This document shows positions 2-17,919 of a stretch of DNA of 23,533 nt, piece after piece. Source of the DNA: a virus; the IMG/VR virus record IMGVR_UViG_3300032073_000258, positions 1 to 23,533 of that record. One strand, written 5' to 3'. The notes under the pieces were generated by a model, which was not told where the DNA came from, ran no database searches, and saw nothing but the letters and a program-made list of their open reading frames with translations. The translations under genes were made by a program, and so were the position numbers. Numbering within the stretch: the first letter of the stretch is position 1; each line of letters opens with the position of its first letter.

Positions 2-3000
2 AACAAAGTACAAAAACCTAAATCTCCTTTTAATTTTAAAGAGAAAAAGAAGATTATGACTACAATGTTTCCATTACCTTCTAATAAAATTATAAAAGTA
101 AAAAATAATTACAATCCAACTGAGATATTAAGTAAGTATGATAAAAAAACTACTGCTTATGTAACTGTTGTTGGACAAAAAGATGCCTCACGATTTAATA
201 GTAGTTATTTTCAAAAGTGGGATGGTAATCCAATGGAAGGATATGAAGATAGAGGATATCTTTACATTGCACCAATGCAAGGAAATTCAGTAAGTGGTAC
301 TGAAGTAAGAAATGGATTATCAGTTGGTTCAGATGACCAAAAAGAAAAGTTTTTTAAATCAAGAGCATATAGCAAATTCAACAAAACAGTTTTTAACATG
401 ATTACAGATAGATTAAACGAATCTATCGAAGTTAAAAAGGATTGGATTTACGATTCAATAAATGAAATCTCAAAAATAGCAGGAGATGGTCTTGATGTTG
501 ATGATGGACCAAATATTATTTATCCATCAGCACCATTATTTAAAAAAATATCAATTCAAAGAGCAGCACAAATAGGATTCGATGTTGTTAATGATATATT
601 AGGTGGTCAAGAGGCAATAGATAAAACAGATTATAGAGTATATGATGATGGACCAGTAGGAGCAGTAACATTCTTCCCAGCTGGTGTAATCGGAACAATG
701 ACCCCAAACAACCAAGTAGATATTTACTCAAGAGGTGCATATTCTAAGTGGTTTACACACGCAACTCGTAAGGCATCTTTAGTTGGATATCAAGTAGTTA
801 GAGGATTGGGTATTAATAAAGCTGAAAAATCACAATCAGGCGATGATGCAAAAGGAGCTAAGGATGTAAAGAAAGAATTTGAAGCATCTTTAAATGAAAA
901 TATAGTACTACCAATTAAAGTAGGAGATACTATTATGACTGGTAGATTTAAAAACAAAAAAACAGTTGTTAAAACTATCGGTAAAGATGAACATGGAATG
1001 CCAACAATTAATGGTAGAAAAGTGGTTACCTTTAGAATGGTTAAAGAAGGATTTATTTCAGAACTTGCAGGTACTGAGATAAGTTGTCCAAAATGTAATC
1101 ATCAATGGGAATTAGAATCTGATGATGATGAAAAATATCTTTGTCACAATTGTGGATGGGATTCACAAAAAGCAGAATATGATTATGACGCATTTGATTC
1201 TTGGCAAGAAAAGAATGGGATGTTAGATGAAAAAAGTGGAAAATTAAGACCCTCTCAAAAACTGGCTAGAAAAAGAGCAATGGCTGGAAAGGCTAGACAG
1301 ATTGCAAGAAAAAGGAAAAGAACAATGATGAGAAGAAAGGGATATGATAAACTTAAAAAGATTGCATACAAAATGGCATATAGACAAGTTTATGATGAAT
1401 TCCTAAAAGATTTATTTCCAGGTGTAAAAAAATCGGAGTTATCTATTCAACAATCTAAAGTTGTTCATAGAAATGTATTAAGAAAAAAGAAAAGAGTTTT
1501 TAAAAGAGCAAAATTCAGATTCTTACCAGCATTAAGAGCAAAAGAAGTTGAAAAGTTTACTAAAAAAGAAGAAGCCAATGAATTGATGATTGGATATGCT
1601 GGACCTGAAGATATGAAAAGGTTCGATAAAAGAAATAAAGAATATAGAAAGACTGCAGATTCCAATAAAGAATATCAATACGATACTGTAAACGAAGGTA
1701 GACCAATTCCTATGGATACTCCTAATGAGTTTGTATATTTAGATTTTAAAAAGTATGCATACAAAAATAGAGGAATGTTTAAAAGAGAACTTTTAAAACA
1801 TAAAGATAATGGTGGAAAGATGTTTTTAACTCTATCTGCATTATGGTACAAATGGGCTAGAAAAAATGAACCAGAATTTACTCACATTAAAGATAAGTTA
1901 AAGTTCGGTAGAGCACTAATGATAATGATGGTAAAGGATGATTTGGTATTTAGTAAAAAAGCTTGGAAAAAAACAAGTAAAATAACAAAGTTAAAAGAAG
2001 GGTTACCAACTAAAGTAACAGATAAATACAAATCAGTTAAACACGATAAAGATTCAACTGAATCAGAAAAAGATTTTAACAAACATCATAATACTTCAAT
2101 GTATGCACCAATGGGTTCTATTGCTGAACCAGATACGATTGATTTTGATGATGATGATAAAGAAGGTGGACATCAATCTAAAGAAAAAGATAATAAAAAG
2201 AAGGGATATGAACCAGTAAAAGAAGGTTTAAAAGAATTAGGAATAAAAGATTTCAAATCCTTATTCAAAAAGATGCCTTCTGATTTACAAAAGAGAGTTT
2301 ATAATCTAAAGAACTTTGGACAGAGAGTAGATAAACATCCAGAGGGTAATGTTCTTAAACATACTATTATGGTTGTGAATCGTTCAATCAAAGATGATGA
2401 TATTGATATTGCAATTGCTGCAATGTTACATGATATAGGAAAAGATGAAACTGCTGGTATTCATCCAAAGAAAGGACACATTACACACTTTGGACATGAG
2501 AAAGTATCTGCTTCATTAGTAAAGAAATACAAAAAGTTTATAGAAGATGTTGGTGGTAATGCTGCAAATGTATTTTATATTGTTAAAAACCATATGAAGT
2601 ATAAACAACTATCTGTAATGACCCCAAAGAAAGTAAATAAAGTTAAATCATTCAGAGCATTTGATAAATTAGGTAAATTTTCTAAACACGATAGAGGTGG
2701 ATTGGGTGAAGGAATACTTACAGAAGGTGGTGCGTATGGACATATGTCTCATCCATTTGATACTGATATCAATTTAACATTTGGACAACTTAAAGATATC
2801 GTAAATCGTGCATTAGAGGGTACATTAGAATTTACACGAGAAAAAACAGATGGACAGGCACTAGCAATTTCATGGAAAGATGGGAGATTAGTTGCAGCAA
2901 GAAATAAAGGACATTTAAAAAACAAAGGTGAGAATGCTTTAGATATAAAAGGAGTATCGGATAAGTTTCAAGGAAGAGGTGGATTAAGTGATGCTTATAA

Positions 3001-3922
3001 TTTTGCTATGAAGGATTTATCTAAAGCAATCTCATCTTTATCGGATAAACAAAGAGATAAGGTATTTAAACAAGGTTCGTGTTTTATGAATCTTGAAGTA
3101 ATATACCCAACATCTGTTAATGTAATTGCTTATGGACAAGCATTACTTGTATTTCATGGAACGATGGAATATGATGATAGTGGTAGTGCAATTGGTGAAA
3201 ATAAAGAATCTGCAAGAATATTGGCAGGTATGATTAAACAAGTGAACAAAGATGTACAAGATAGTTACACAATTCAAGGCCCACCTGTTGTACAATTACC
3301 AAAATCACAAGATTTATCTAAAAAAAGAGGTAAATACTCATCACAGATATCCAAATTACAGAAAGAATTTAGTTTAAAGGATACTGATGGTGTTGCAAAC
3401 TATCACCAATCATGGTGGGAACAATGGGTTGATAAGAATTCTCCATCATCACTTGATAACAAAACCAAAATGGGGTTAGTTAAGAGATGGGCGTTTATGG
3501 ATAAGAAGTTTAGATTAGATAAAAAGAGCATTACTGATGAAAAAACATTAGAATGGGCTAAGAAAACAGATAAAGATAATCATAAGAAGATATCTAAGGA
3601 TAATTTAATGAAGTTTGAAAAAATCTTCTTAGGATTGGGAGCTGAAGTATTAGAATTTACTTCATCTGCACTAACAGTTAATCCTGATAAGGCAATTCGT
3701 GATATAAAGAAACGAATCGATAAGACAATTAAAGATGTTAAGAAATCAGGTGACCCTAAAAAGATAGAAAAACTAAAATTAGAGTTAGGAAGGTTAAATT
3801 CTATTGGAGGAACTAAAAAAATAGTTCCAAATGAGGGTATCGTATTCGATTATAAAGGGAAAACCTTCAAATTGACTGGAACATTTGCTTCAGTTAATCA
3901 AATACTCGGAATTTTCTTCTAA
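2..3922 (+). CDS. Large multidomain nucleotidyltransferase / zinc ribbon / HD hydrolase / ligase-like protein (5' partial)
   Basis: The frame is open to the left edge: no stop occurs upstream of the first ATG (nt 56), and the residues read there (KSPFNFKEKKKIMTTMF) continue smoothly into the domain, so the true start probably lies outside the window. Seen in order: the C-terminal part of a cytidylyl/adenylyltransferase-like fold with SGTEVR (nt 293-310), the family's S-x-T-x-(V/I)-R signature; a CxxC...CxxC zinc ribbon (1085-1153); a Lys/Arg-rich stretch (about 1260-1560); an HD domain with His at 2360, His-Asp at 2429-2434 and further His at 2477, 2486 and 2495; and a covalent nucleotidyltransferase module with KTDG (2843-2854, motif I), NLEVIYP (3089-3109), NEGIVF (about 3830) and FKLTG (about 3866, motif V). 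The (T/H)xGH motif of the first domain would lie upstream. I infer a nucleotide- or RNA-processing enzyme, possibly RNA repair; the substrate is unknown. Strongly basic regions suggest nucleic-acid contact. Confidence 0.8.
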   Translation, partial: NKVQKPKSPFNFKEKKKIMTTMFPLPSNKIIKVKNNYNPTEILSKYDKKTTAYVTVVGQKDASRFNSSYFQKWDGNPMEGYEDRGYLYIAPMQGNSVSGTEVRNGLSVGSDDQKEKFFKSRAYSKFNKTVFNMITDRLNESIEVKKDWIYDSINEISKIAGDGLDVDDGPNIIYPSAPLFKKISIQRAAQIGFDVVNDILGGQEAIDKTDYRVYDDGPVGAVTFFPAGVIGTMTPNNQVDIYSRGAYSKWFTHATRKASLVGYQVVRGLGINKAEKSQSGDDAKGAKDVKKEFEASLNENIVLPIKVGDTIMTGRFKNKKTVVKTIGKDEHGMPTINGRKVVTFRMVKEGFISELAGTEISCPKCNHQWELESDDDEKYLCHNCGWDSQKAEYDYDAFDSWQEKNGMLDEKSGKLRPSQKLARKRAMAGKARQIARKRKRTMMRRKGYDKLKKIAYKMAYRQVYDEFLKDLFPGVKKSELSIQQSKVVHRNVLRKKKRVFKRAKFRFLPALRAKEVEKFTKKEEANELMIGYAGPEDMKRFDKRNKEYRKTADSNKEYQYDTVNEGRPIPMDTPNEFVYLDFKKYAYKNRGMFKRELLKHKDNGGKMFLTLSALWYKWARKNEPEFTHIKDKLKFGRALMIMMVKDDLVFSKKAWKKTSKITKLKEGLPTKVTDKYKSVKHDKDSTESEKDFNKHHNTSMYAPMGSIAEPDTIDFDDDDKEGGHQSKEKDNKKKGYEPVKEGLKELGIKDFKSLFKKMPSDLQKRVYNLKNFGQRVDKHPEGNVLKHTIMVVNRSIKDDDIDIAIAAMLHDIGKDETAGIHPKKGHITHFGHEKVSASLVKKYKKFIEDVGGNAANVFYIVKNHMKYKQLSVMTPKKVNKVKSFRAFDKLGKFSKHDRGGLGEGILTEGGAYGHMSHPFDTDINLTFGQLKDIVNRALEGTLEFTREKTDGQALAISWKDGRLVAARNKGHLKNKGENALDIKGVSDKFQGRGGLSDAYNFAMKDLSKAISSLSDKQRDKVFKQGSCFMNLEVIYPTSVNVIAYGQALLVFHGTMEYDDSGSAIGENKESARILAGMIKQVNKDVQDSYTIQGPPVVQLPKSQDLSKKRGKYSSQISKLQKEFSLKDTDGVANYHQSWWEQWVDKNSPSSLDNKTKMGLVKRWAFMDKKFRLDKKSITDEKTLEWAKKTDKDNHKKISKDNLMKFEKIFLGLGAEVLEFTSSALTVNPDKAIRDIKKRIDKTIKDVKKSGDPKKIEKLKLELGRLNSIGGTKKIVPNEGIVFDYKGKTFKLTGTFASVNQILGIFF

Positions 3923-6971: not shown

Positions 6972-7376
6972 ATGGAAGATATAACAAAAGCACTTTATTC
7001 GAATTTTGTAAGCACTATCAGAGAAACCGCTAGTGATATACAAGAATACGATTGTGAAAACCAAGAAGATTTAAAAGAGATAATTGAATTTTTAAAAACC
7101 TACAAACCTGATGTGAACGAAGCAGAATATCAAGGTAGAGAAGTTAAGTTGGGTAAACCAACAAGAGGTGATAGTAAAAAATTCAAAGTATATGTTAAAA
7201 ACCCAAAAGGTAATGTGGTAAAGGTAAACTTTGGTCACAAGGGTAAGGGTGGTGAAAAAACTATGAGAATAAAAAAATCAGACCCGGCAAGAAGAAAAGC
7301 ATTTAGGGCAAGACACAATTGTGATAATCCTGGTCCTAGACACAAAGCAAGATATTGGTCTTGTAGAGCTTGGTAA
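6972..7376 (+). CDS. Small basic protein with conserved C-terminal Cys/Trp motif; possible processed head protein
   Basis: This 134-aa protein lies between terminase and portal and is preceded by aaggag. The first 50 residues are acidic and helical. After V48-N49-E50|A51 the character changes to a strongly basic domain: YQGREVKLGKPTRGD, KKFKVYVKNPKGNVVKVNFG, then FRARHNCDNPGP and KARYWSCRAW at the very end. This C-terminal block with its invariant-looking RARHNC...ARYWSC ending is one I associate with marine T4-like phages, with no assigned function. The VNE|A junction matches the form of T4 prohead-protease sites. An acidic leader removed from a basic, DNA-binding remainder would fit an internal head protein, but this is inference. 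Two Cys residues and a His near the C-terminus could bind metal. Confidence 0.8.
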   Translation: MEDITKALYSNFVSTIRETASDIQEYDCENQEDLKEIIEFLKTYKPDVNEAEYQGREVKLGKPTRGDSKKFKVYVKNPKGNVVKVNFGHKGKGGEKTMRIKKSDPARRKAFRARHNCDNPGPRHKARYWSCRAW

Positions 7377-7407: not shown

Positions 7408-9168
7408 ATGGCAGATACTTCATTTTTTGGTAGATTAACTCGACTGTTTTCAACACAGGCGATTGTTCGTGTCGATAAAGACGGTAAACGAAAAGTTGCG
7501 GATACTGATGATAGACAAAGAACAAATCTTTCATCTTTAAGAGATAGATATACCAAATTACAAAAAACACAATACGAAATGGCGGGTGGGGCTCAATCAA
7601 TGGCTTACCAACAAGTTCGTAGAGAAATATTCAGAGATTACGATGCAATGGATAATGACCCGATAATGGCATCGGCTCTTGATATATTCGCAGATGAATC
7701 TACACTTAAGAATGAATTTGGAAACATATTAACAGTTCGTTCTTCAAACGAAAATATACAAGAAATACTTAATAACTTATTTTACGATATTATGAACATA
7801 GAATTTAATCTATGGCCATGGGTAAGAAATATGTGTAAGTATGGAGATTTCTTTTTAGGTTTAGAAATGGCAGAAGGAAAGGGTATCGTAAATGTTACAC
7901 CTTATTCGGTTTATAATACAGAAAGATTAGAAAGAACAGACCCAGATAATCCAAACTATGTAAAATTTCATATAGAAGATGATGTAAATGGAAAAGTTGA
8001 TTATGAAAATTGGGAAATTGCTCACTTTAGATTATTAGCAGATACCAATTGGTTACCATATGGTAAATCGATGGTTGAAAATGGTAGAAGATTGTGGAAA
8101 CAATTATCTCTTATGGAAGATGCAATGTTAATTCATAGAATTATGAGAGCACCTGAAAAAAGAGTTTTCAAAATTGATATAGGAAATATTCCACCAAACG
8201 AAGTGGATAACTATATGCAAAGAATTATCAATAAAATGAAAAAAGTTCCTTTCCTAGATAGAAACACAGGAGAGTATAACTTAAAATATAATATGCAAAA
8301 CCTAACAGAAGATTTTTATCTACCAGTTAGGGGTGGTGATAGTGGAACACAGATAGATAATCTTAGTGGATTAGAATACTCATCAATTGATGATATTGAT
8401 TACCTAAAGAACAAATTATTTGCTGCACTTAAAATACCAAAAGCATATTTAGGATATGATGAGAATGTTAATGGTAAAGCAACTTTAGCAGCAGAAGATG
8501 TTAGATTTGCAAGAACAATCGAAAGAATACAAAGAATAGTTGTATCTGAATTAAGTAAGATTGCAATAGTTCATTTATATTCACAAGGTATCCAAGATGA
8601 AGAGATGACAAACTTCGAATTACAATTAGTAAACCCATCTACAATATACGAACAAGAAAAAGTTAACTTGTGGAGTGAGAAGATAAGATTGGCCACAGAT
8701 ATCAAAGATTTAAATATGTTATCTAAAGATTGGTTATATGAAAATATATTTAAAATGTCCAATCAAGAAGCTGAAACTCAAAGAGGTAAAATAATTGATG
8801 ATTTAAAAGATAGATTTAGACATCGTTCTATTGAAGATGAGGGTAATGACCCTGCTCAAGAAGATGATGTAGAAGATGTAGAAGAATCATTAGAAAAAAT
8901 TAAACAAGAAATTAAAAACAAAGGTGGTAGACCTAGAGAAGGGGGAACTTACAAAAAGGATAAACATCCATATGGAAGAGACCCATTAGGTGATGACGAC
9001 CGTACTAAACCTCGAAAGAGACAGACCAGAGAAAATGCTACAAGTAGTATTAAGGTTTCTCCACAAAAGGCAAAAGAGATTGTCAATGGTGTTTCATCAA
9101 AGCGAAAAGTTTTGAAAGAAAACGATATGTTAAATGAAGAGAATCTTCTATCTGACAGAGAAATTTAA
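7408..9168 (+). CDS. gp20: Portal vertex protein, gp20-like
   Basis: This forms the dodecameric ring at the unique head vertex that initiates head assembly, docks terminase and later joins the neck. It has 586 aa; T4 gp20 has 524. Typical portal features are YQQVRREIFRDYDAMDNDP (about residues 67-85) followed by IMASALDIFADE, the wing region LWPWVRNMCKYGDFFLGL, the stem/clip-adjacent KMKKVPFLDRNTGEYNLKYN, and DDIDYLKNKLFAALKIPKAY with GKATLAAEDVRFARTIERIQ. The extra C-terminal tail after about residue 490 is charged, with GGRPREGGTYKKDKHPYGRD, and probably accounts for the added length. It ends with MLNE|ENLL, which loosely resembles a gp21 site. No good Shine-Dalgarno sequence precedes the ATG. 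A candidate late promoter follows the gene. Confidence 0.95.
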   Translation: MADTSFFGRLTRLFSTQAIVRVDKDGKRKVADTDDRQRTNLSSLRDRYTKLQKTQYEMAGGAQSMAYQQVRREIFRDYDAMDNDPIMASALDIFADESTLKNEFGNILTVRSSNENIQEILNNLFYDIMNIEFNLWPWVRNMCKYGDFFLGLEMAEGKGIVNVTPYSVYNTERLERTDPDNPNYVKFHIEDDVNGKVDYENWEIAHFRLLADTNWLPYGKSMVENGRRLWKQLSLMEDAMLIHRIMRAPEKRVFKIDIGNIPPNEVDNYMQRIINKMKKVPFLDRNTGEYNLKYNMQNLTEDFYLPVRGGDSGTQIDNLSGLEYSSIDDIDYLKNKLFAALKIPKAYLGYDENVNGKATLAAEDVRFARTIERIQRIVVSELSKIAIVHLYSQGIQDEEMTNFELQLVNPSTIYEQEKVNLWSEKIRLATDIKDLNMLSKDWLYENIFKMSNQEAETQRGKIIDDLKDRFRHRSIEDEGNDPAQEDDVEDVEESLEKIKQEIKNKGGRPREGGTYKKDKHPYGRDPLGDDDRTKPRKRQTRENATSSIKVSPQKAKEIVNGVSSKRKVLKENDMLNEENLLSDREI

Positions 9169-9234: not shown

Positions 9235-10101
9235 ATGAAAAAAATAAAACATAGCAAATTTAAGAACACTGGTATATTGTTCGAACTACTCGTTAGACAA
9301 ATAACAGTTGAGATACTTAATGGTACAGACGAAGTAGCAAAGGGTATAATAAAAGAGTTCTTTAAAACAGGCACTGAAATTTCTAAGGAGAAGAAATTAT
9401 ACGATTTATTACTTAAAGAAAAGTATAATACAGAATCTAGAGCAGAAAAATTTATAGATGTAGTCTTAGAAGCTCATTCTAAAATTAAATCTAAGCAAAT
9501 TTTAAAAGAAAAATATAACCTTATTAAAAAGATACAAGAATCTTTTGATATCAACGAATTTTTAAACTCACCACTTACAAACTACAAAACTTACGCATCT
9601 ATATACAAAATATTTGAATCATCAAATGTTGAAAATAGTGATATTAAAGATAATCTAAATGCTAGATTTACATTGGTAGAGCATATTATTAATGATTCAA
9701 TTAAAAACAAAAATAAATTAGTTGAAGATAGGGCAATACAACAGTATCAAAAACAAGAAAAAGATGTAAGATTATTATCTTATAAAATTCTTGTTGAGAC
9801 CTTTAACAAAAAATATACAACACTTGATGGAAATCAAAAAGGATTGTTAAAAGAATATATCAACAATATTAATAATACTTCTAAATTTAAAGATTATTAT
9901 AATGATAAATTAAAAGGTATAGTTACCTCCTTACATGAACAATATACTAAAACTCAAGATAAAGTAACAAAAATCAAGTTGAAGGAAACTATTAATGTTT
10001 TAAAGAAAAACAAAGTTAGAAAAAAAGTATCTGATTCCCAAGTTTCAGCCTTAATGTTAGGATATGAACTAATGAAAGAGTTAAAGTATGTTAGAAAGTA
10101 A
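9235..10101 (+). CDS. Conserved T4-like phage protein of unknown function downstream of portal
   Basis: This 288-aa protein is highly charged and Lys/Asn/Ile-rich. It begins KKIKHSKFKNTGILFELLVR, a conserved-looking N-terminus that I associate with proteins found next to the portal/protease genes of marine T4-like phages. Predicted structure is almost entirely helical, with no membrane segment or signal peptide. A second block, KYNLIKKIQESFDINEFLNS (about residues 94-113), followed by SPLTNYKTYASIYKIFES, looks like a compact helical core. T4 keeps its core genes 67 and 68 at this position, but no convincing sequence match is visible. A role in head assembly is inferred from position only. The start has only a weak aggg upstream. 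The 3' end overlaps the next gene by 14 nt. Confidence 0.75.
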   Translation: MKKIKHSKFKNTGILFELLVRQITVEILNGTDEVAKGIIKEFFKTGTEISKEKKLYDLLLKEKYNTESRAEKFIDVVLEAHSKIKSKQILKEKYNLIKKIQESFDINEFLNSPLTNYKTYASIYKIFESSNVENSDIKDNLNARFTLVEHIINDSIKNKNKLVEDRAIQQYQKQEKDVRLLSYKILVETFNKKYTTLDGNQKGLLKEYINNINNTSKFKDYYNDKLKGIVTSLHEQYTKTQDKVTKIKLKETINVLKKNKVRKKVSDSQVSALMLGYELMKELKYVRK

Positions 10102-10540
10102 ATATAAAAAATTTATTGACGAACTAATTAAGGAAGTTGAAGAAGAATTAGAAGAACAAACAACAACTGCAAATGTAGATGGTTATCAAACACCATTTGC
10201 TTTTTCAGGTAAAGGAAAGAAAGATAGAAGAAAGAAAATTGCAACACAATTAGGATATAGTGTTGTAGGTGAAGGAAAAAAAGTTAAAAGACCAGTTAAT
10301 AGGTGGTTAGAGTTAAAGAATGATGAAACTCGTTCTCCTAATCAAAAATTAGCAGTTGGTCTTAAAGAATTAAAATACCAATTAGCTGAAGTTGAGAAAT
10401 TTTTTAACTGGTACAATAAAATAAAAACGATGAATGAGCTTGATAAAAATAATTATTGGAAGAGGACTCATCGTCATATTTATAATGTAAAGGAAAGATT
10501 AATCAACATTGCAAATAGTATAAAGGAGTTAGACCAATGA
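10088..10540 (+). CDS. Unknown head-region protein with N-terminal acidic helix
   Basis: This 150-aa protein overlaps the previous gene by 14 nt and the next by 4 nt (ATGA), so it is almost certainly co-translated. Residues 1-25 form an amphipathic, very acidic helix (KKFIDELIKEVEEELEEQ). It is followed by TTTANVDGYQTPFAFSGKGK, a short motif I have seen in other marine T4-like phage proteins without known role. A basic segment (KKDRRKKIATQLGYS) and a helical C-terminus follow. The acidic-helix leader resembles in a general way the capsid-targeting leaders of T4 internal proteins, but no clear cleavage-like xNE site is present. The function is not known. Confidence 0.75.
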   Translation: MLESKYKKFIDELIKEVEEELEEQTTTANVDGYQTPFAFSGKGKKDRRKKIATQLGYSVVGEGKKVKRPVNRWLELKNDETRSPNQKLAVGLKELKYQLAEVEKFFNWYNKIKTMNELDKNNYWKRTHRHIYNVKERLINIANSIKELDQ

Positions 10541-10980: not shown

Positions 10981-11153
10981 TGAACAAAACTAAATTATTA
11001 GAGATTATCGACCAAGAAATCATTAATATCAAATATGGTGTTAATGAAGAATTATCTGATAGGGACGAAGATAAAATTCGTAAACTTATTAGACAAGAGG
11101 TATCGGCAATCTTTTTTGATTTATTTAAGAAAAGAAAAAATTGGGGAGCATAA
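10980..11153 (+). CDS. Short 57-aa conserved-looking protein upstream of the prohead protease
   Basis: The ATG at 10980 overlaps the previous stop (TAATG), and its own stop at 11151-11153 overlaps the protease ATG (TAATG), so it fills the gap exactly. The product reads MNKTKLLEIIDQEIINIKYG, then VNEELSDRDEDKIRKLIRQE and VSAIFFDLFKKRKNWGA. It is a charged helical protein with an aromatic, basic C-terminal helix. Proteins with a similar R-x-L-I-R-x-E-(V/I)-x-x-I-x-F-D-L-F-K-K pattern are familiar from marine T4-like phages, but I know no function. Its position directly before gp21 suggests a prohead core or protease partner role. It contains VNE|E at residues 21-23, a weak cleavage-like site. 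Confidence 0.8.
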   Translation: MNKTKLLEIIDQEIINIKYGVNEELSDRDEDKIRKLIRQEVSAIFFDLFKKRKNWGA

Positions 11154-11737
11154 TGGGACAATTATTAATAGAAACTAGATTATTCGAAGGTAAGGTAAAC
11201 GAAGATGCCGATGGGAGAACACTTGTTAAAGGAGTTCTTCAAAGAGCTGAAGCTCCTAACCAAAATGAAAGAGTATATCCTAAGCAAATCTTAATGAGAG
11301 AAGCTAAGAAATATGAAGTACTCATTAAAGAAAGAAGAGCATTAGGTGAGTTAGACCATCCAGATTCTTCTGTAATAAATTTAAAGAATGTATCACACAA
11401 TGTTAGAGAGATACATTGGGAAGGCAACGATTTAGTAGGCACAGTAGAAATACTTCCTACACCTTCTGGTAATATCTTAAAAGAATTATTAAAAGCAGAC
11501 ATCCTTCTAGGAATATCTTCAAGAGGTATGGGTTCAGTAGAACCTATCGGTAAAGGAAAGGTTCAAGTAGGAGAAGATTTTGAGTTACTTGGTTGGGATT
11601 TTGTATCCAATCCATCAACACATGGTGCATTTATGACACCTTTAAAAGAATCAAAACATTATGCAACTGCAGATATCTGTGGAGATTATTGTAAAGCACA
11701 AAACTTAATGAGGGAAATAATAACAGAATTGGTATGA
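11153..11737 (+). CDS. gp21: Prohead core protease, gp21-like (S78-type serine protease)
   Basis: This maturation protease sits in the prohead core and cleaves scaffold, capsid protein and internal proteins before packaging. I choose the ATG at 11153 (194 aa), which has ggggag 4 nt upstream and overlaps the previous stop; an in-frame TTG at 11141 would add four residues and is less likely. Conserved elements are NERVYPKQIL (about 38-47), LGELDHP with the catalytic His69, HNVREIHWEGNDLVGTVEIL, and LLGISSRGMGS with the catalytic Ser at 122/123, followed by GWDFVSNPST. These match the herpesvirus-like fold of T4 gp21. The protein carries K14-V15-N16-E17|D near its N-terminus, a possible self-processing site. 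The last codons overlap the next start by 4 nt. Confidence 0.93.
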   Translation: MGQLLIETRLFEGKVNEDADGRTLVKGVLQRAEAPNQNERVYPKQILMREAKKYEVLIKERRALGELDHPDSSVINLKNVSHNVREIHWEGNDLVGTVEILPTPSGNILKELLKADILLGISSRGMGSVEPIGKGKVQVGEDFELLGWDFVSNPSTHGAFMTPLKESKHYATADICGDYCKAQNLMREIITELV

Positions 11738-12147
11738 TAAAATTAGCAGGAATAGTAGATTTAAAATCAGTAGGAACTGTAAACGAAGGAACTCGTTCAC
11801 AAGTTGGTATTATTAATAGAAGTGGAAAGATTGCATCAACATATGTTCATTATGATGGATATCCAAGAAACATGAAACCAGGAATTAAGAAACATTTGAA
11901 GAATGAGAAAGATGTTCTTCAACTTATTAAAAGAGGTGGTGCACGAGGAATATATAATGATAAAGATATAGAATACTATGATGATTCTAAAATGAAACCA
12001 ACAAAAGGTGATTTTAAAGATATTGCTAAATATTTAGATAGAACTAAAGACAATTGGGCAGATTTTGTATATTTATATAATATGAAAGATAAGAAATGGT
12101 ATTATGCAGACCCATACAAAGATAAAGAACTAATAAAATTATTCTAA
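11734..12147 (+). CDS. Protein of the GTRS/DGYP type behind a short cleavable-looking leader
   Basis: This 137-aa protein overlaps the protease stop by 4 nt. Residues 1-18 (MIKLAGIVDLKSVGTVNE) form a leader ending in V16-N17-E18|G19. A domain then starts abruptly at GTRSQVGIINRSGKIASTYV followed by HYDGYPRNMKPGIKKHL. That domain resembles small phage and bacterial proteins that normally begin at or near the T-R-S-x-I-G-I-x-N-x-D/S-G motif and continue with H-x-D-G-Y-P, so the leader looks like an addition. This arrangement parallels T4 internal proteins, whose short N-terminal capsid-targeting sequence is removed by gp21. The biochemical function of the DGYP domain is unknown to me. The end of the gene (12068-12077) contains an exact copy of the candidate promoter motif. 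Confidence 0.8.
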   Translation: MIKLAGIVDLKSVGTVNEGTRSQVGIINRSGKIASTYVHYDGYPRNMKPGIKKHLKNEKDVLQLIKRGGARGIYNDKDIEYYDDSKMKPTKGDFKDIAKYLDRTKDNWADFVYLYNMKDKKWYYADPYKDKELIKLF

Positions 12148-12159
12148 GGAGAGTACAAT

Positions 12160-12909
12160 ATGAAACTAATCAATATACTTAAGGAATCAGAAGATAGAGG
12201 ATTATCTAATGAAGTTAAAAAACACTTCTTAGAAATCGTTTCTACTTACAACAAGTATCAAGAATCAATGGATAGAAAATCTGATATCATTCAAGTTGCT
12301 GAAACTTTAGGTGGAATCACAGAAGCTGCAAGAGAACTTGCCTTAAGAGAATCAGATGATTGGTTTGATAAACATACTGTAAAAAGAAATATGGGTGAAC
12401 TAAGTAAATTAGGTGCTCAATTTGATAAAGTTGCTAAAGAGGCAAGAGGTTTAGACCAAAGGATGAATGGTTTGTATGAGGATATGGGTAACATTCTTTC
12501 AAGATACTATAAAATCGGTGAAATTAGTGAAGATGAAATGAAATCAAGATTAGGTATCAAAGAATCTAAAGAAGATTGTGGATGTGGCTGTAAAGGAACT
12601 ACGCCAGGCGGATGTGGTGATAAATCAGTAAACGAAGAATCAGTATCAATTTCAACAAGAGATGACAAAGGAACGATTACAACTCGTATTAAAGAAGAAA
12701 ACGAATTGAATGAACAAGAAATGGCATTATATGAGTTTGGTCAAAAAGTAACGAAATTAATGGAAAAAAGTTGTCCAAATGATGCCGGTAAATGGGCAGC
12801 ATCTAAAGCAGCTGCAAAAAAGAAATTTGATGTTTATCCTTCCGCATATGCTAATGGATGGGCAGCAAAAAACTACAAATCCAAAGGTGGAACTTGGAAA
12901 AACTGTTAA
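12160..12909 (+). CDS. Modular head-region protein with Cys cluster, xNE linkers and C-terminal YPSAYAN domain
   Basis: This 249-aa protein is preceded by aaggag with good spacing. It has three apparent parts. Residues 1 to about 137 are helical and begin with a leader-like MKLINILKESEDRG. A Cys-rich patch follows (C140, C142, C144, C152 in DCGCGCKGTTPGGCGDK) that could bind metal. S156-V157-N158-E159|E and L183-N184-E185|Q then bracket a short Ser/Thr/Arg segment. The C-terminal part contains CPNDAGKWAASKAAAKKKFD and VYPSAYANGWAAKNYKSKGG, ending in Cys. The YPSAYAN block is a small domain of unknown function found in many phage and large-virus proteins. The linkers match those of the following gene, so the two proteins probably share a processing or assembly route. 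Exact function unknown. Confidence 0.8.
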   Translation: MKLINILKESEDRGLSNEVKKHFLEIVSTYNKYQESMDRKSDIIQVAETLGGITEAARELALRESDDWFDKHTVKRNMGELSKLGAQFDKVAKEARGLDQRMNGLYEDMGNILSRYYKIGEISEDEMKSRLGIKESKEDCGCGCKGTTPGGCGDKSVNEESVSISTRDDKGTITTRIKEENELNEQEMALYEFGQKVTKLMEKSCPNDAGKWAASKAAAKKKFDVYPSAYANGWAAKNYKSKGGTWKNC

Positions 12910-12921
12910 GGAGAATTTAAA

Positions 12922-14646
12922 ATGCCAAAGTACAACTACAAAGATGATGCAATGACAGCCTTTATGAAAGGTAAAATTTCTGCACAAGAATTAGATAAGA
13001 TTTCAAAAAATCAATTCAAAACATCAGTGGCCACCAAACAAGAATTACAAAACTTTTTGAAATCAGGATACATGAAAGAGTTGATGGCAAACACATACGG
13101 ACTCAAAGTACCTGCTATGGAAAAGAAAGTAAAAGAACTAATGAGGTTTGCAGAATCAATGCAATTCGAAGGAATGTTCTCAACAATAGACCAAATCAGA
13201 CAAGATTCTAAAGATGTTAGAGATTTCGTAAAGAATGTATTTAAGGATAGAGATTTTAAGAAGATGAGTAATGATAAAGACTTCATTAAGTATCTTAAAT
13301 CTATCTATGAAGGATTTGCAAGTGATGCACAACGAAAAGCAGCATTCGCAAATGGATATGAAGAAAAGGGTAAAAAGAAAGAATCAATCTCAGACCATCC
13401 AAAGGCTTCTTGGAAAAAGAAGAAAGATGAATCAGTAAACGAAGCATTTGTTGTAGCATATGGAAAAGGACCTAAACCTATCAAACCTGCATTTGCAGCC
13501 TACGCTGATAAAAAGATGGCTCAAAAGTTTATGGGTGATATGAAAAAGGATGGGTACAAAGTAATGATGACCCAAAAGAAAATCAAAGGTGTTGATGAAT
13601 CAATAAACGAAATATCTGCTAAAAAAGGATTAGAACAAGTTGTTAAAGGTAATACTAAAGATGTAGAAGGAATCAAGGTATCTAAGGAAATGGCACAAGC
13701 TATGTTAGATTGGTTCAACTCATCTCCTTATGGTAGAAAGTATCCAAAAGCAAAAAACTCAAGACTTCATATATCAATTGGTATAATGTTATCATTTGGT
13801 TTAGAAAGATATGCTAAACATAAAGGTGCTAAAGAAGAACTTAAGTATCTTAAGAGCATGAGAGAATCAGTAAACGAAGGTAAGAAAAGATACTACCAAA
13901 AAGATGGTATTGGTAAAGCAAAATATACAATCTCCTATCACGATGGTAAAAATAAACATAAAGATGGTAGTGATTTCTTTGATATTCAAATTTTCAGAAA
14001 CAAAAAAGATTTAGCAAAGTTCGTTAACACTTTACACAAAAGTGGATATGTTTATGGATTTAATGAATCAATAAACGAGGCATCAATCAAAGGTAGAAAT
14101 AACAAAACTGGTGAAACATTTGGAATGGTTATCGGTTCTGATAAGAAGAATAGAGAAGGAAATTTTGAACTAACCATAAGAGTTTCTTATAGTTCAAGAA
14201 TATCTGCTTATAAACTTACCTTCAATAGTAACAATGAACTTATTAGTTTTTTAGATTACGGATATTCAATGGATGGTAGACCACCTGATATGAAAGGTAG
14301 TGGAAGTGGAAAAAGTGTTAAAGCAGATAAAAGAAAAACAATTATCTTTATTGCTAAAATTACTTCACCTGCATTTGCAAACAAAATTTACAAACATCTT
14401 CAAAAAGTAAACGAATCAGTAAACGAATCCAAAACAAAAGAAAGTAAAGCTGTTCAAGCGATTTACAAGTATGATAAAAAAGAAAAAAAGTTTTATGATA
14501 AAATGGCTGAACATGAAAAAAGAATCGGTACAAGTGAATATAAAAGATTTATAGCAAAAGCTCTTAGAGGATTTGATATCAATCCACAAAAATATAAATT
14601 CATACCTGATGCAGAAGAAATATTGTATCAAACAGTATCAAAGTAA
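12922..14646 (+). CDS. 574-aa multi-segment protein joined by five ES(V/I)NE linkers; possible protease-processed polyprotein
   Basis: The ATG follows aaggag. Five near-identical linkers divide the protein: D169-E174|A, D225-E230|I, R314-E319|G, N381-E386|A, and V496-N-E|S-V-N-E502|S. The segments are 1-174 (helical, containing FASDAQRKAAFANGY), 175-230 (AFVVAYGKGPKPIKPAFAAY, a small mixed alpha/beta unit), 231-319 (KVSKEMAQAMLDWFNSSPYG and a helical core), 320-386 (YTISYHDG, DFFDIQIFRNKKDLAKFV), 387-502 (beta-rich) and 503-574 (basic helical). Most segments are basic. The linker form, hydrophobic-Asn-Glu followed by Ala/Gly/Ser, matches the T4 gp21 rule ((L/I)-x-E|(A/G/S)), and the gene lies between gp21 and gp22. 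I infer a precursor for several small internal head proteins. The alternative is a stable bead-on-string protein. Confidence 0.85.
   Translation: MPKYNYKDDAMTAFMKGKISAQELDKISKNQFKTSVATKQELQNFLKSGYMKELMANTYGLKVPAMEKKVKELMRFAESMQFEGMFSTIDQIRQDSKDVRDFVKNVFKDRDFKKMSNDKDFIKYLKSIYEGFASDAQRKAAFANGYEEKGKKKESISDHPKASWKKKKDESVNEAFVVAYGKGPKPIKPAFAAYADKKMAQKFMGDMKKDGYKVMMTQKKIKGVDESINEISAKKGLEQVVKGNTKDVEGIKVSKEMAQAMLDWFNSSPYGRKYPKAKNSRLHISIGIMLSFGLERYAKHKGAKEELKYLKSMRESVNEGKKRYYQKDGIGKAKYTISYHDGKNKHKDGSDFFDIQIFRNKKDLAKFVNTLHKSGYVYGFNESINEASIKGRNNKTGETFGMVIGSDKKNREGNFELTIRVSYSSRISAYKLTFNSNNELISFLDYGYSMDGRPPDMKGSGSGKSVKADKRKTIIFIAKITSPAFANKIYKHLQKVNESVNESKTKESKAVQAIYKYDKKEKKFYDKMAEHEKRIGTSEYKRFIAKALRGFDINPQKYKFIPDAEEILYQTVSK
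13429..14427 (+). repeat. Dispersed 15-nt repeat GAATCAGTAAACGAA
   Basis: Exact copies lie at 13429-13443, 13864-13878 and 14413-14427. One-base (13597-13611) and two-base (14065-14079) variants lie between, and a one-base variant lies in the previous gene at 12622-12636. All are in frame and encode E-S-(V/I)-N-E linkers (K-S-V-N-E in the earlier gene). Confidence 0.9.
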
Positions 14647-14676: not shown

Positions 14677-14946
14677 ATGGGTAATAAAATAAAATTGGTC
14701 TCTATTAAAGTTAGAAATGGAGATATTCAAAAGGCATTAAAAGTTTTTAAAAGAAGAGTAAGTGATTCTGGTCACTTGTTCGAAGTACGAAAAAGACAAG
14801 AGTACACAAAACCCACCACTATCCGAAGAAAACAAAAACAACAAGCTATCAGAGCTAATCAAAGACAAGTAATCCTAGATAAGATAGAAGATGGGAATAC
14901 TAGACTTAGATTAACAACCAAAAAGAAGAAAAAAGGTCAAAGATAG
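14677..14946 (+). CDS. rpsU: Phage-encoded ribosomal protein bS21
   Basis: This 89-aa, very basic protein matches the bS21 family along its core. SIKVRNGDIQKALKVFKRRV (residues 9-28) corresponds to the bacterial [20 protein letters not shown], and GHLFEVRKRQEYTKPTTIRRKQ continues as in bacterial [21 protein letters not shown]. After residue 63 a tail not found in the 71-aa E. coli protein ends in a Lys run. bS21 binds the 30S platform near the 3' end of 16S rRNA, by the anti-Shine-Dalgarno sequence, and takes part in initiation. Virus-encoded bS21 is known from aquatic phage genomes and may replace or compete with host bS21 to favour viral mRNAs. It sits directly upstream of the scaffold/capsid transcription unit. 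The start lies only 1 nt after the Shine-Dalgarno sequence. Confidence 0.92.
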   Translation: MGNKIKLVSIKVRNGDIQKALKVFKRRVSDSGHLFEVRKRQEYTKPTTIRRKQKQQAIRANQRQVILDKIEDGNTRLRLTTKKKKKGQR

Positions 14947-15110: not shown

Positions 15111-16280
15111 ATGGCAAATTCTAAATTACTAAAAGAAGCCATCGCTGACGCTAAAGCTGTGAGAGAAACTGCAATCGCTAATGCTAAAATTGCATTAGAA
15201 GAAGCATTTGCTCCTAAACTTCAATCAATCTTATCTAAGAAACTTCAATCAGAAATGAATGAAGAAGAAGAAGATGAGGTAGAAGAACAAGTAGAAGAAG
15301 TAGCAGAAGAAGTAGGTTCATCTGATATTGGTAAGAGTGATAACTCTAAACCATCTAAAGATGCATCTGATTCATCTGATATTGCTGAAACTAAAGAAGA
15401 AGAAGACGCAGAAGAAGTATCAGAGAATGGTGAAAACGCTGAACCATCTTTAAAAGAAGAAGAAACTGAAGAAGAAGTATCTGAGGAAGTATCTGAAGAA
15501 GAAGAAGAAGAAGTTGAAGAAACTTACAAATCTGAACAAGAAGATATGGACGAAGAAGAAATCGAAGAAGATTCTCACGAAGAAGATGAGGAAGTAGACG
15601 AAGAACTAGACCTGGAAGCTATCATTAAAGAGTTAGAATCTGATATGGAAGAAGAACTCGATGATGAAGAAGAAGGTGAAGTTGAAGATATCGCAGCAGA
15701 TGCTGTTGATTCTCACGAAGATGACCATCATGAAGAAGGAGAAGAACACGAAAGTGAAGATGCTCCTAAAGATGAGGAAGTTGGAGTAGAAGAAGAAGCA
15801 GAAGATGATGAAGATATCGACTTAGATGAAATTCTAAGAGAAATGGGATACGGAGAAAAAGAACCAGCAAACGAAGGTGACCACGATGAAGAAGAAAATA
15901 AAGAGTTAGAAGAAACAAAATCTGAACTATCAGAAGCAATTTCTACTATCAAATCTTTAAAGAAAACTATCAACGAGGTAAATCTTTTAAATGCTAAACT
16001 TTTATTCGCAAATAAATTATTCCGTTCTTACAATCTAAACAACGACCAAAAGGTTAAAGTTGTAGAAACTCTTGACAGAACAAACTCTGTAAGAGAAGTG
16101 AAATTGGTTTTTAGTACACTTGCAGAATCATTGAAATTCAATGGAAACAGTAAAAAGCAAAAAATCTCAGAAGGAATAGCTTCTAAGGCATCTGCTTCAA
16201 CTGCTCCAAAGAAAGAAATAATCGAAGAGAGTACAAATGAAATCGCTAACAGATTTAAAAAGTTAGCAAACATAATTTAA
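15111..16280 (+). CDS. gp22: Prohead scaffolding (core) protein, gp22-like
   Basis: This forms the internal core on which the capsid assembles and is later degraded by gp21. It has 389 aa, longer than T4 gp22 (about 269). Residues 1-50 form a helix (MANSKLLKEAIADAKAVRET onward). Residues 51 to about 275 are an extreme Glu/Asp tract. The C-terminal part is a helical domain with VNLLNAKLLFANKLFRSYNL, DQKVKVVETLDRTNSVREVK and LVFSTLAESL, the conserved gp22 signature in this phage group; it ends IANRFKKLANII. Possible gp21 sites include L29-E-E31|A and L-S-E|A. The N-terminal helix next to an acidic tract resembles T4 gp67, so a gp67-gp22 fusion is possible. C-ending codons are more common than in the neighbouring unknown genes, as in the capsid gene. 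Confidence 0.92.
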   Translation: MANSKLLKEAIADAKAVRETAIANAKIALEEAFAPKLQSILSKKLQSEMNEEEEDEVEEQVEEVAEEVGSSDIGKSDNSKPSKDASDSSDIAETKEEEDAEEVSENGENAEPSLKEEETEEEVSEEVSEEEEEEVEETYKSEQEDMDEEEIEEDSHEEDEEVDEELDLEAIIKELESDMEEELDDEEEGEVEDIAADAVDSHEDDHHEEGEEHESEDAPKDEEVGVEEEAEDDEDIDLDEILREMGYGEKEPANEGDHDEEENKELEETKSELSEAISTIKSLKKTINEVNLLNAKLLFANKLFRSYNLNNDQKVKVVETLDRTNSVREVKLVFSTLAESLKFNGNSKKQKISEGIASKASASTAPKKEIIEESTNEIANRFKKLANII

Positions 16281-16308: not shown

Positions 16309-17919
16309 ATGGCAAATTTTGATTTATCTAAACTAACAGAAGGAAAGAACCCACAATCTGTAATGCTCGAGGAAACAAGAGGATTAAAGAGCAAATGGGA
16401 AAACACTGGACTTCTTGAAGGTTTAAAAGAAAGAGACAGTCATCAGATGGCTGTTCTTTTAGAGAACCAAGCAAAACAATTGCTTGATGAAGCTAACTCT
16501 ACATCCGCTGGAAGTGGAAACGAAGAGTGGAGTGGTGTAGCTTTACCATTGGTAAGACGTATCTTCGGTGAAATAAGTGCGAAGGAATTCGTTTCTGTTC
16601 AACCGATGAACTTACCATCAGGTCTAATATTTTATTTAGACTTTAAATATAACAACGGTCAGTTCGGTGGAGCTAACTATTCTGGGTCATCTATCTATGG
16701 TGGTGATGGTTCAGATTTAGGTTCTACTAATGTAGCTAAAAACGGTCTTTATGGAGACGGTAGATTTGGTTACACACAACCTGACAATAACAAGTTTATC
16801 GCAAAAGCTGACGCAACTGTTGCATCTGCTTCTGTATATGATGACTTAAACTATGATGGAAGATATACTGCTTCTGTTGCTGCTGGAAACATTTTCAAAG
16901 TAACAATCGCAAAATCTGATATTGATAGTTCTGCTGATAACGACGGTATCAGAAGTTTTACTTTAACAACTAACTCTGGTTCATTTATAGATGAAAATCT
17001 TAGTGCATTCAACAAGGTTGATGGTGCTAATTATGTATTCTTCTATTCTGGTTCAGAAAAAGTACAAGATGTTGAAGTAAATTATTCTAAACTTAACTCT
17101 GCAGGAGATAGAGGTGATTTTGAAGATAGAGATGCTATCTTAAACACATCTGGTTCTTCAGGAACTGCATTAGATATTCCAGAAATCGACCTAGAGTTGA
17201 AATCTGAGGCTATCGTTGCTAAGACTAGAAAACTAAAAGCAGTTTGGACGCCTGAGTTAGCTCAAGACCTTAATGCTTATCACTCAATTGATGCTGAAGC
17301 TGAATTAACTTCTATGTTATCTGAGTACATCTCATTAGAGATTGACCTAGAAATCTTAGATTTATTAAGAAGCAATGCGTTAACTAAAGAGTACTGGTCA
17401 GTTAACATCGGTGAAGAATGGAATGGTGCTGGTTGGACTGCAGCTTCTACGGGACTTGCATACCAAAAGAACACTTGGTTCCAGACTCTTGGTACGAAAC
17501 TTAACAAAGTTTCTAACAAGATTCACCAATTAACACTTAGAGGTGGAGCGAACTTCGTAGTTGCTTCTCCAGATGTATGTACTATCTTAGAATCTATCCC
17601 AGCTTTCTCTGTGAATGCTGATAAAGATTCTGGACAGTTCGCAGCTGGTGTATCAACTGTTGGTTCACTTGCAAACAGATATACAGTATATAAGAATCCT
17701 TACCAAACTAATAACGAAATCCTTATGGGCTTCAAAGGTAGTAACTTCTTAGAAACTGGAGCTGTTTATGCACCATATGTTCCACTTATCATGACTCCAT
17801 TAGTATATGACCCTCAAAACTTCACACCAAGACGTGGCGTTATGACGAGATATGCTAAGAAGATGGTAAGACCTGAATTCTATGGTAAAGTTTTAATCAA
17901 AGATATACAGAATGTATAA
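16309..17919 (+). CDS. gp23: Major capsid protein, gp23-like
   Basis: This is the HK97-fold subunit that forms the head shell. It has 536 aa; T4 gp23 has 521. A clear aaggagag lies 9 nt before the ATG. The first 61 residues form a helical N-terminal region comparable to the 65-residue propeptide of T4; the best cleavage site is L59-D60-E61|A62 (nt 16491/16492). Beyond it, LVRRIFGEISAKEFVSVQPM followed by NLPSG aligns with MVRRAIPNLIAFDICGVQPM of gp23, and RKLKAVWTPELAQDLNAYHS aligns with RQLKAAYSIELAQDLRAVHG, followed by DAEAELTSMLS. The C-terminal region shows YAPYVPLIMTPLVYDPQNFT and FTPRRGVMTRYAKK. A Ser/Asp/Gly-rich stretch at about 100-290 is the variable surface part. An intrinsic terminator follows. 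Confidence 0.97.
   Translation: MANFDLSKLTEGKNPQSVMLEETRGLKSKWENTGLLEGLKERDSHQMAVLLENQAKQLLDEANSTSAGSGNEEWSGVALPLVRRIFGEISAKEFVSVQPMNLPSGLIFYLDFKYNNGQFGGANYSGSSIYGGDGSDLGSTNVAKNGLYGDGRFGYTQPDNNKFIAKADATVASASVYDDLNYDGRYTASVAAGNIFKVTIAKSDIDSSADNDGIRSFTLTTNSGSFIDENLSAFNKVDGANYVFFYSGSEKVQDVEVNYSKLNSAGDRGDFEDRDAILNTSGSSGTALDIPEIDLELKSEAIVAKTRKLKAVWTPELAQDLNAYHSIDAEAELTSMLSEYISLEIDLEILDLLRSNALTKEYWSVNIGEEWNGAGWTAASTGLAYQKNTWFQTLGTKLNKVSNKIHQLTLRGGANFVVASPDVCTILESIPAFSVNADKDSGQFAAGVSTVGSLANRYTVYKNPYQTNNEILMGFKGSNFLETGAVYAPYVPLIMTPLVYDPQNFTPRRGVMTRYAKKMVRPEFYGKVLIKDIQNV

Follow-up and report, generated by a model that had tools for sequence, protein, structure and literature searches.

A polyprotein gene within a T4-like head gene cluster

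The window (the whole stretch of DNA analysed here, 23,533 nucleotides) is a 23.5-kb fragment of an uncultured marine virus of bacteria with a T4-like head gene cluster comprising terminase, portal, gp21-type prohead protease, gp22-like scaffold and major capsid protein (Table 1). The nearest named relatives of the capsid protein, at about 50-55% identity, come from an uncultured phage, Microcystis phage Mel-JY01 and Flavobacterium phage immuto. The assignment of the gene at 15111 as a gp22-like acidic scaffold is our own reading of its sequence, and the gene had no PHROG match. A ribosomal protein S21-like gene (14677-14946; PF01165, E 4e-14) lies between the polyprotein gene and gp22, a position kept in relatives. 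From 21500 to the end of the window at 23533, a long Ser/Thr-rich repetitive protein begins that runs past the window end and is probably a tail or fibre protein.

Table 1. Features of the head gene cluster and of the polyprotein gene (a slash in a motif marks the candidate cut)
Feature	Positions (nt)	Strand	Remarks
Large multi-domain protein with LNE, SINE and VNE sites	56..3922	+	1288 aa
Gene for module AEYQGREVKL..	6972..7376	+	VNE/A before the module (nt 7113-7121)
gp20 portal	7408..9168	+	phrog_213, E 3.3e-63
Gene with site VGE/G (nt 10265-10273)	10088..10540	+	relatives insert from 0 to at least 4 linkers' worth of modules there
gp21-type prohead protease	11141..11737	+	PF03420 Peptidase_S77, E 6.9e-26; phrog_207, E 1e-48
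gp21, own candidate site VNE/D	11195-11203	+	kept in relatives
Small head-cluster gene	11734..12147	+	N-terminal site TVNE/G (nt 11779-11787)
Head-cluster gene with SVNE and LNE sites	12160..12909	+	C-terminal module ..VYPSAYANGWAAKNYK..; phrog_27331
Head polyprotein gene (protein P0001)	12922..14646	+	574 aa, pI ~9.7, net charge +46, about 8 modules
Module 1 (YNYKDDAMTAFMKGKIS..)	12922..13167	+	aa 1-82; ends near FAE/S; 13 other loci
Module 2 (GMFSTIDQIRQDSKDVRDFV..)	13168..13314	+	aa 83-131; 22 other loci
Module 3 (FASDAQRKAAFANGY..), linker 1 at its end	13315..13443	+	aa 132-174; 14 other loci
Linker 1, ESVNE/A, GAATCAGTAAACGAA	13429..13443	+	L001 collinearity ends at 13451
Module 4 (AFVVAYGKGPKPIKPAF..)	13444..13611	+	aa 175-230; 24 other loci
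Linker 2, VDE/SINE/I, GAATCAATAAACGAA	13597..13611	+	local pLDDT <50 across the linker
Module 5 (ISAKKGLEQVVKGNTKDVEG..)	13612..13878	+	aa 231-319; 10 other loci
Linker 3, MRE/SVNE/G	13864..13878	+	
Module 6 (GKKRYYQKDGIGKAKYTISYHDG..)	13879..14079	+	aa 320-386; 38 other loci
Linker 4, FNE/SINE/A	14065..14079	+	first base opens the cassette common to L001
Module 7 (ASIKGRNNKTGETFGMVIGSDKK..)	14080..14427	+	aa 387-502; 11 other loci
Linker 5, VNE/SVNE/S	14413..14427	+	last base closes the cassette common to L001
Module 8 (SKTKESKAVQAIYKYDKKEKKFYDKM..)	14428..14643	+	aa 503-574; 23 other loci
gp22-like acidic scaffold (our reading)	15111..16280	+	from sequence; position before gp23 as in L018, L019
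gp23 major capsid protein	16309..17919	+	candidate maturation site LDE/A (nt 16483-16491)

The pentapeptide ES[VI]NE occurs five times in P0001, at residues 170, 226, 315, 382 and 498. When the protein was shuffled 20,000 times, one ES[VI]NE arose in 16 shuffles and two or more in none, so the five linkers that the original prediction had reported in this open 574-aa frame are real and lie far above chance. Four of the five are followed by Ala, Gly or Ser (A, I, G, A and S, in order), where it had stated this of most, and at four of the five a further [hydrophobic]-x-E/S directly precedes the linker to form a tandem site. The accompanying division of the protein into five or six products needed revision: the five linkers stand, but the 174-aa first segment is not a single unit. 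As relatives carry its parts apart, it comprises at least three modules (1-82, 83-131 and 132-174), giving about eight in all. The placement of the gene between gp21 and gp22 held broadly but not as direct adjacency, since the genes at 11734 and 12160 follow gp21 and the S21-like gene precedes gp22.

All eight modules of P0001 were found again, each in 10 to 38 other loci. Module 1 is N-terminal, directly after Met, in the window and in relatives such as L001, L023, L024, L030 and L031, and internal after a Glu site in other relatives; module 2 is preceded in relatives by LYE/G, MAE/G or MNE/S; and the cluster of module 8 (M3) is C-terminal in every case, with a single right partner. The N-terminus of P0001 has no obvious targeting peptide: module 1 begins directly, and the sites sit between modules. 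P0001 had no Pfam, PHROG or PADLOC match at the thresholds used and, searched as a whole against INPHARED phages, none even at E 1, and the close relatives that we found were uncultured IMG/VR contigs throughout. Among 61 relatives, LPD5 matched once, and the three single weak PADLOC matches were too few to make a case for anti-defence.

The internal segments (n=197) are small and basic, with a median length of 75 aa, 15.7% Lys and a net positive charge in 95%. Because one MAFFT alignment put modules in the wrong place when short fragments were aligned to P0001, structures were predicted with AlphaFold2 for one module and one two-module stretch. Module 6 was predicted as a compact beta-beta-beta-alpha domain (mean pLDDT 85.6). 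In the two-module stretch, module 4 was predicted as beta-beta-alpha-beta and module 5 as mainly alpha-helical, making them two different predicted domains with pLDDT below 50 across linker 2. Linker 2, the one examined, is therefore not buried within one fold but has a predicted domain on either side. Fold searches of the predicted modules against PDB and BFVD returned nothing with E ≤0.001, so the folds reveal no function. One alignment hinted that modules 4 and 6 share an origin, but profile comparison did not support this (probability 4.9%).

Related viruses swap modules at the linkers

An initial scan of viral contigs yielded 16 relatives, which carry the same small domains in differing orders and combinations with the same linkers between them. 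With further scans, based on gp21, two modules and a linker-pair pattern, the collection grew to about 190 loci. Some of these are the same contig, and the collection, drawn from uncultured phages, is redundant in part. In IMG/VR, 91 proteins with at least two linkers, found in 84 loci, had 89 distinct architectures, and 208 of 231 distinct ordered module pairs were seen once. Module clusters, whose counts vary with thresholds, numbered 166 with 107 singletons, indicating a pool far from exhausted. A protein with at least two linkers was present in 36 of 80 gp21-anchored loci, many of them incomplete. Across 1,788 pooled ORFs of related loci, ESVNE was the commonest pentamer, occurring 160 times compared to 0.6 expected from composition; the runner-up occurred 77 times.

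Where proteins match without gaps at 80% identity or more, 76% of internal homology ends fell within 12 aa of a linker, compared to 34% for random positions. Break-points from gapped BLAST gave a weaker signal, as those alignments run on through unrelated modules, and were set aside in favour of the ungapped matches. The exchange is visible at base resolution between the window and one close relative, L001, whose DNA is about 90-94% identical in shared stretches. The collinear block stops 8 bases beyond linker 1 and collinearity restarts within linker 5, while the cassette at 14065-14427, bounded exactly by linkers 4 and 5, lies elsewhere in L001 (6859-7224). Architecture changes between close relatives while the core head genes stay. 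The comparison of relatives that had been proposed as a check accordingly revealed segments gained, lost and reordered at linkers, and we conclude from these alignments that related viruses swap modules like cassettes at the linkers.

The swapping extends beyond a single gene. The same modules occur in homologues of the genes starting at 10088, 10537, 11734, 12160 and 6972, and the original view of one isolated polyprotein gene needs revising: the cassette system also fills neighbouring head genes. The L001 homologue of the gene at 11734 carries about 800 extra bases at its TVNE/G site; homologues of the gene at 12160 hold inserted modules, among them module 3 in three relatives; and the AEYQGREVKL.. 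module serves as the C-terminal polyprotein module in five relatives. The ends of the large protein encoded at 56-3922 (residues 12-131 and 882-1287) match a 639-aa Mel-JY01 protein annotated as cytidylyltransferase-like, and the roughly 750 residues between them contain an HD domain (PF01966) and sites of the same kind as in the polyprotein. The shortest of its homologues have a few hundred residues and the longest 1917, with four linkers, and it therefore looks like another host for inserted modules. This protein also has a zinc-ribbon-like stretch, and its ends are cytidylyltransferase-like. No sequence similarity was found between it and cargo candidates of cyanophages and pelagiphages, the HTVC008M version included.

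The linker is conserved as DNA as well as protein. GAATCAGTAAACGAA accounts for 91 of 150 ES[VI]NE linkers, although codon usage predicts it for about 4% of ESVNE words, and two random ESVNE copies are identical with a frequency of 0.44, compared to 0.31 for one word from a module and 0.03-0.24 for core-gene pentamers. Two copies of GAATCAGTAAACGAA spaced 165-195 bp apart were found in 54 IMG/VR stretches, whereas the synonymous pair GAATCTGTTAATGAA, about equally likely by codon usage, was found in none; paired GAATCAGTAAACGAA was absent from bacterial and archaeal genomes. Spacings between neighbouring linkers are multiples of 3 in 109 of 115 cases. Homogenisation of linkers within a genome was slight (0.41 versus 0.34 identical), and we do not claim it. 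The simplest reading is that the linkers are of common descent and spread by recombination between cassettes, in which case each linker also offers a short homology for the next exchange. The conserved word probably serves as a recombination foothold as well, although this pattern falls short of proving that the word itself is selected as DNA.

Junctions and the prohead protease

T4 gp21 cuts after L/I-x-E (PMC9026906), and a protease gene of the same S77 family lies upstream of the polyprotein gene in the same head cluster. Among the first 61 proteins collected that had at least two linkers, the P1' residue was Ala, Gly or Ser at 122 of 189 linkers, compared to about 20% of all residues. In the contigs studied, gp23 carries a [LVI]xE/[AS] site in 45 of 45 cases, and the N-terminal site of gp21 itself is mostly VNE/D or INE/D. 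Since P3 here is Val or Ile where T4 has Leu or Ile, VNE as a site rests on the lineage's own pattern. We also collected 187 distinct octamers located upstream of homologous module starts that lack ES[VI]NE just before them; these had Glu at P1 in 79% and L, I, V, M or F at P3 in 76%, the remaining positions being variable. The tandem arrangement [hydrophobic]xE/S[VI]NE/ was present in 61% of 217 distinct contexts, compared to 23% in the control. As these regularities follow position and not DNA sequence, they point to proteolysis. One of the five linkers in the window, linker 2, speaks against it by having Ile at P1'. P0001 otherwise has the hallmarks of an S77 substrate, namely an S77 gene in its cluster, hydrophobic-x-Glu at P3-P1 and a small P1' residue, as at gp23, and these patterns support the view that the junctions match the cutting preference of the gp21-type protease encoded nearby.

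The strong synonymous-site conservation and the exact cassette boundaries would also be accounted for if GAATCAGTAAACGAA served recombination or belonged to a mobile element, and the protein motif merely resulted from reading it in frame. We consider this highly improbable, as many junctions consist of other residues, and so of other DNA, yet keep [hydrophobic]xE (KGIDE, PTMAE, YTLAE and others). Similarly, orthologues of the gene at 10088, which carry 0 to 4 ES[VI]NE linkers upstream of the junction, have [VIL]xE just before the segment leading into RP[VI]NRW in 48 of 48 cases among the matches listed, despite differing DNA, and an unsystematic look noticed no recombinase or flanking element. 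A role as DNA is most readily understood as an additional one of the linker site.

ES[VI]NE could alternatively be a mere flexible spacer in an uncut, multi-domain head or late protein resembling beads on a string. The linker is probably flexible, given its low-confidence prediction, and shuffling at a spacer would be tolerated too. A spacer nevertheless leaves unexplained why P1 Glu and P3 hydrophobic residues are kept while other positions vary, why P1' is biased towards Ala, Gly and Ser, why the site type is that of gp23 and gp21, and why free-standing modules start at P1', and we regard this explanation as very unlikely.

One module serves as a natural control. The AEYQGR.. module follows [LIVM]xE/[AGS] in phages with an S77 protease (C48C1, HTVC008M, Melnitz, immuto and the window), but is a gene of its own in Kolga, CRP-901, HTVC026P and HTVC111P, where it begins MA-KYQGR, MA-TYKGK or MA-KYKGR, with the start codon immediately before the position homologous to P1'. 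A related short gene occurs in CRP-3, its start having diverged further. PF03420 had no match in any of these five phages. Among the phages with S77, the predicted new N-terminus is GEYRGKDV.. after ELDE in immuto and AEFQGKKV.. after LEE in HTVC008M. The predicted cleavage product is thus a whole protein made by other phages. More broadly, relatives of the AEYQGR..ARYWSC module are free-standing in six phages (Kolga, Aegir, CRP-901, HTVC026P, HTVC111P and CRP-3), and as these are smaller SAR11 and Roseobacter phages, the module pool crosses phage groups. In Roseobacter phage CRP-2 (positions 197-653 of the locus) and in CRP-207, two polyprotein module families are encoded by adjoining separate small genes. 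C48C1, HTVC008M and Melnitz also have gene clusters whose products open with a stretch of about 10 residues that closes on hydrophobic-x-Glu, with Ala or Gly next (for example MKKFSEIIE/A, MTRYNKTMSE/A and MIPFILKE/G), resembling T4 capsid-targeting propeptides; these clusters are possible head cargo of cultured marine phages.

Together, the positional constraint, the free-standing modules and the gp23/gp21 site type support, but do not prove, cleavage by gp21 in the prohead; on comparative grounds the case that the polyprotein would be cut is strong. A further question is what becomes of the pieces. In T4, gp21 cuts core proteins, gp22 and gp67 among them, into several fragments, most of which do not stay in the head (PMC9026906). 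P0001 could likewise be a core component of the gp67, gp68 or gp22 kind, whose gp21-generated pieces exit the head, creating space for the DNA, and have no role in the next host, and its position in the head cluster fits such a component equally well. We find this unlikely, though it is the main rival: the modules are conserved and basic, those tested are predicted to be folded, architecture turns over between close relatives in which core head genes are stable, and a module that is a free-standing gene in unrelated phages without S77 would be unexpected for a disposable scaffold.

Proposed mechanism and comparison with known systems

We consider it likely that P0001 is a precursor of about eight basic proteins, cut by gp21 in the prohead and carried to the next host, with the linkers as exchange points. 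The polyprotein would be made alongside the late head genes and, judging from gene position and protease logic, would enter the prohead core. There the gp21-type (S77) serine protease would cut it after hydrophobic-x-Glu, often at the tandem [hydrophobic]xE/S[VI]NE/ followed by Ala, Gly or Ser, freeing about eight small, separately folded, basic proteins. By analogy with T4 internal proteins, these could stay alongside the DNA and travel through the portal to the next host, where they would presumably act. The 15-bp linker word would supply the short homology through which phage recombination swaps, inserts and drops whole cassettes in frame, and neighbouring head genes would take up the same modules through the same sites. 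A broader proposal, for which we see even chances, is that one 15-bp word acts as both protease site and recombination foothold in a general cassette system through which marine T4-like phages assemble, trade and deliver sets of small proteins, effectors or DNA binders, drawn from an open-ended pool.

T4 internal proteins have been a puzzle for decades, being abundant, variable and delivered to the host, with mostly obscure function. The modules described here provide a large natural collection of small internal-type proteins. Because their boundaries are marked by sequence, the pool lends itself to computational readout and its modules to testing one by one. The arrangement suggests that virus heads are loaded with small proteins through a plug-in system, in which a processing site can double as an evolutionary exchange point. 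P0001 would be the first phage head precursor known to us to resemble an RNA-virus polyprotein yet be cut in trans by the capsid protease. We found no earlier description of a shuffled head polyprotein with a double-duty linker in the open-access literature searched, and a text search for the linker sequence returned no phage paper among the matches listed.

The ingredients are already known from internal proteins, prohead proteases and polyvalent proteins; a shuffled precursor cut in trans is not among them. Polyvalent proteins of phages and conjugative elements (Iyer et al. 2017; PMC5512222), for which co-delivery with DNA and proteolytic separation were proposed and a comparison with RNA-virus polyproteins was drawn, resemble P0001 in joining several distinct or unrelated domains in one polypeptide. 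They contain LPD or enzymatic domains and often an embedded metallopeptidase, whereas P0001 has modules of about 75 aa without recognised enzymes and is predicted to be cut in trans by the prohead protease. In the heads of giant phages, an S77 relative processes many internal proteins after x-Glu, some at several sites, with phiKZ proteins cut at S/A-x-E and SPN3US gp245 at A-x-E (PMC9026906, PMC10052503); the multiple cuts there chop propeptides, and a chain of separate functional modules is not described. A putative cytidylyltransferase, T4-GC190, is present in virions of the marine T4-like cyanophage S-SM1 (PMC3037559), and the protein at 56-3922 can be likened to it through the annotation of its Mel-JY01 homologue, by analogy only, as direct similarity to the HTVC008M version was not detected. 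An integron-like gene-cassette system relies on a dedicated recombinase acting on a recombination site, and on the side of the window we see the conserved 15-mer.

The closest parallel is with the internal head proteins of T4 (IPI, IPII, IPIII and Alt), which have capsid-targeting sequences. The T4 internal proteins are small and basic, are released by gp21 after hydrophobic-x-Glu and vary between relatives, and at least one of them, IPI, acts against host restriction (PMC9026906). Small basic modules, a short hydrophobic-x-Glu motif and variability are shared by P0001, where they are known from sequence. Each T4 internal protein has one gene and an N-terminal propeptide of 10-19 residues, whereas the window polyprotein joins several domains in one precursor, with a site at each junction and cassettes swapped at near-identical linkers.
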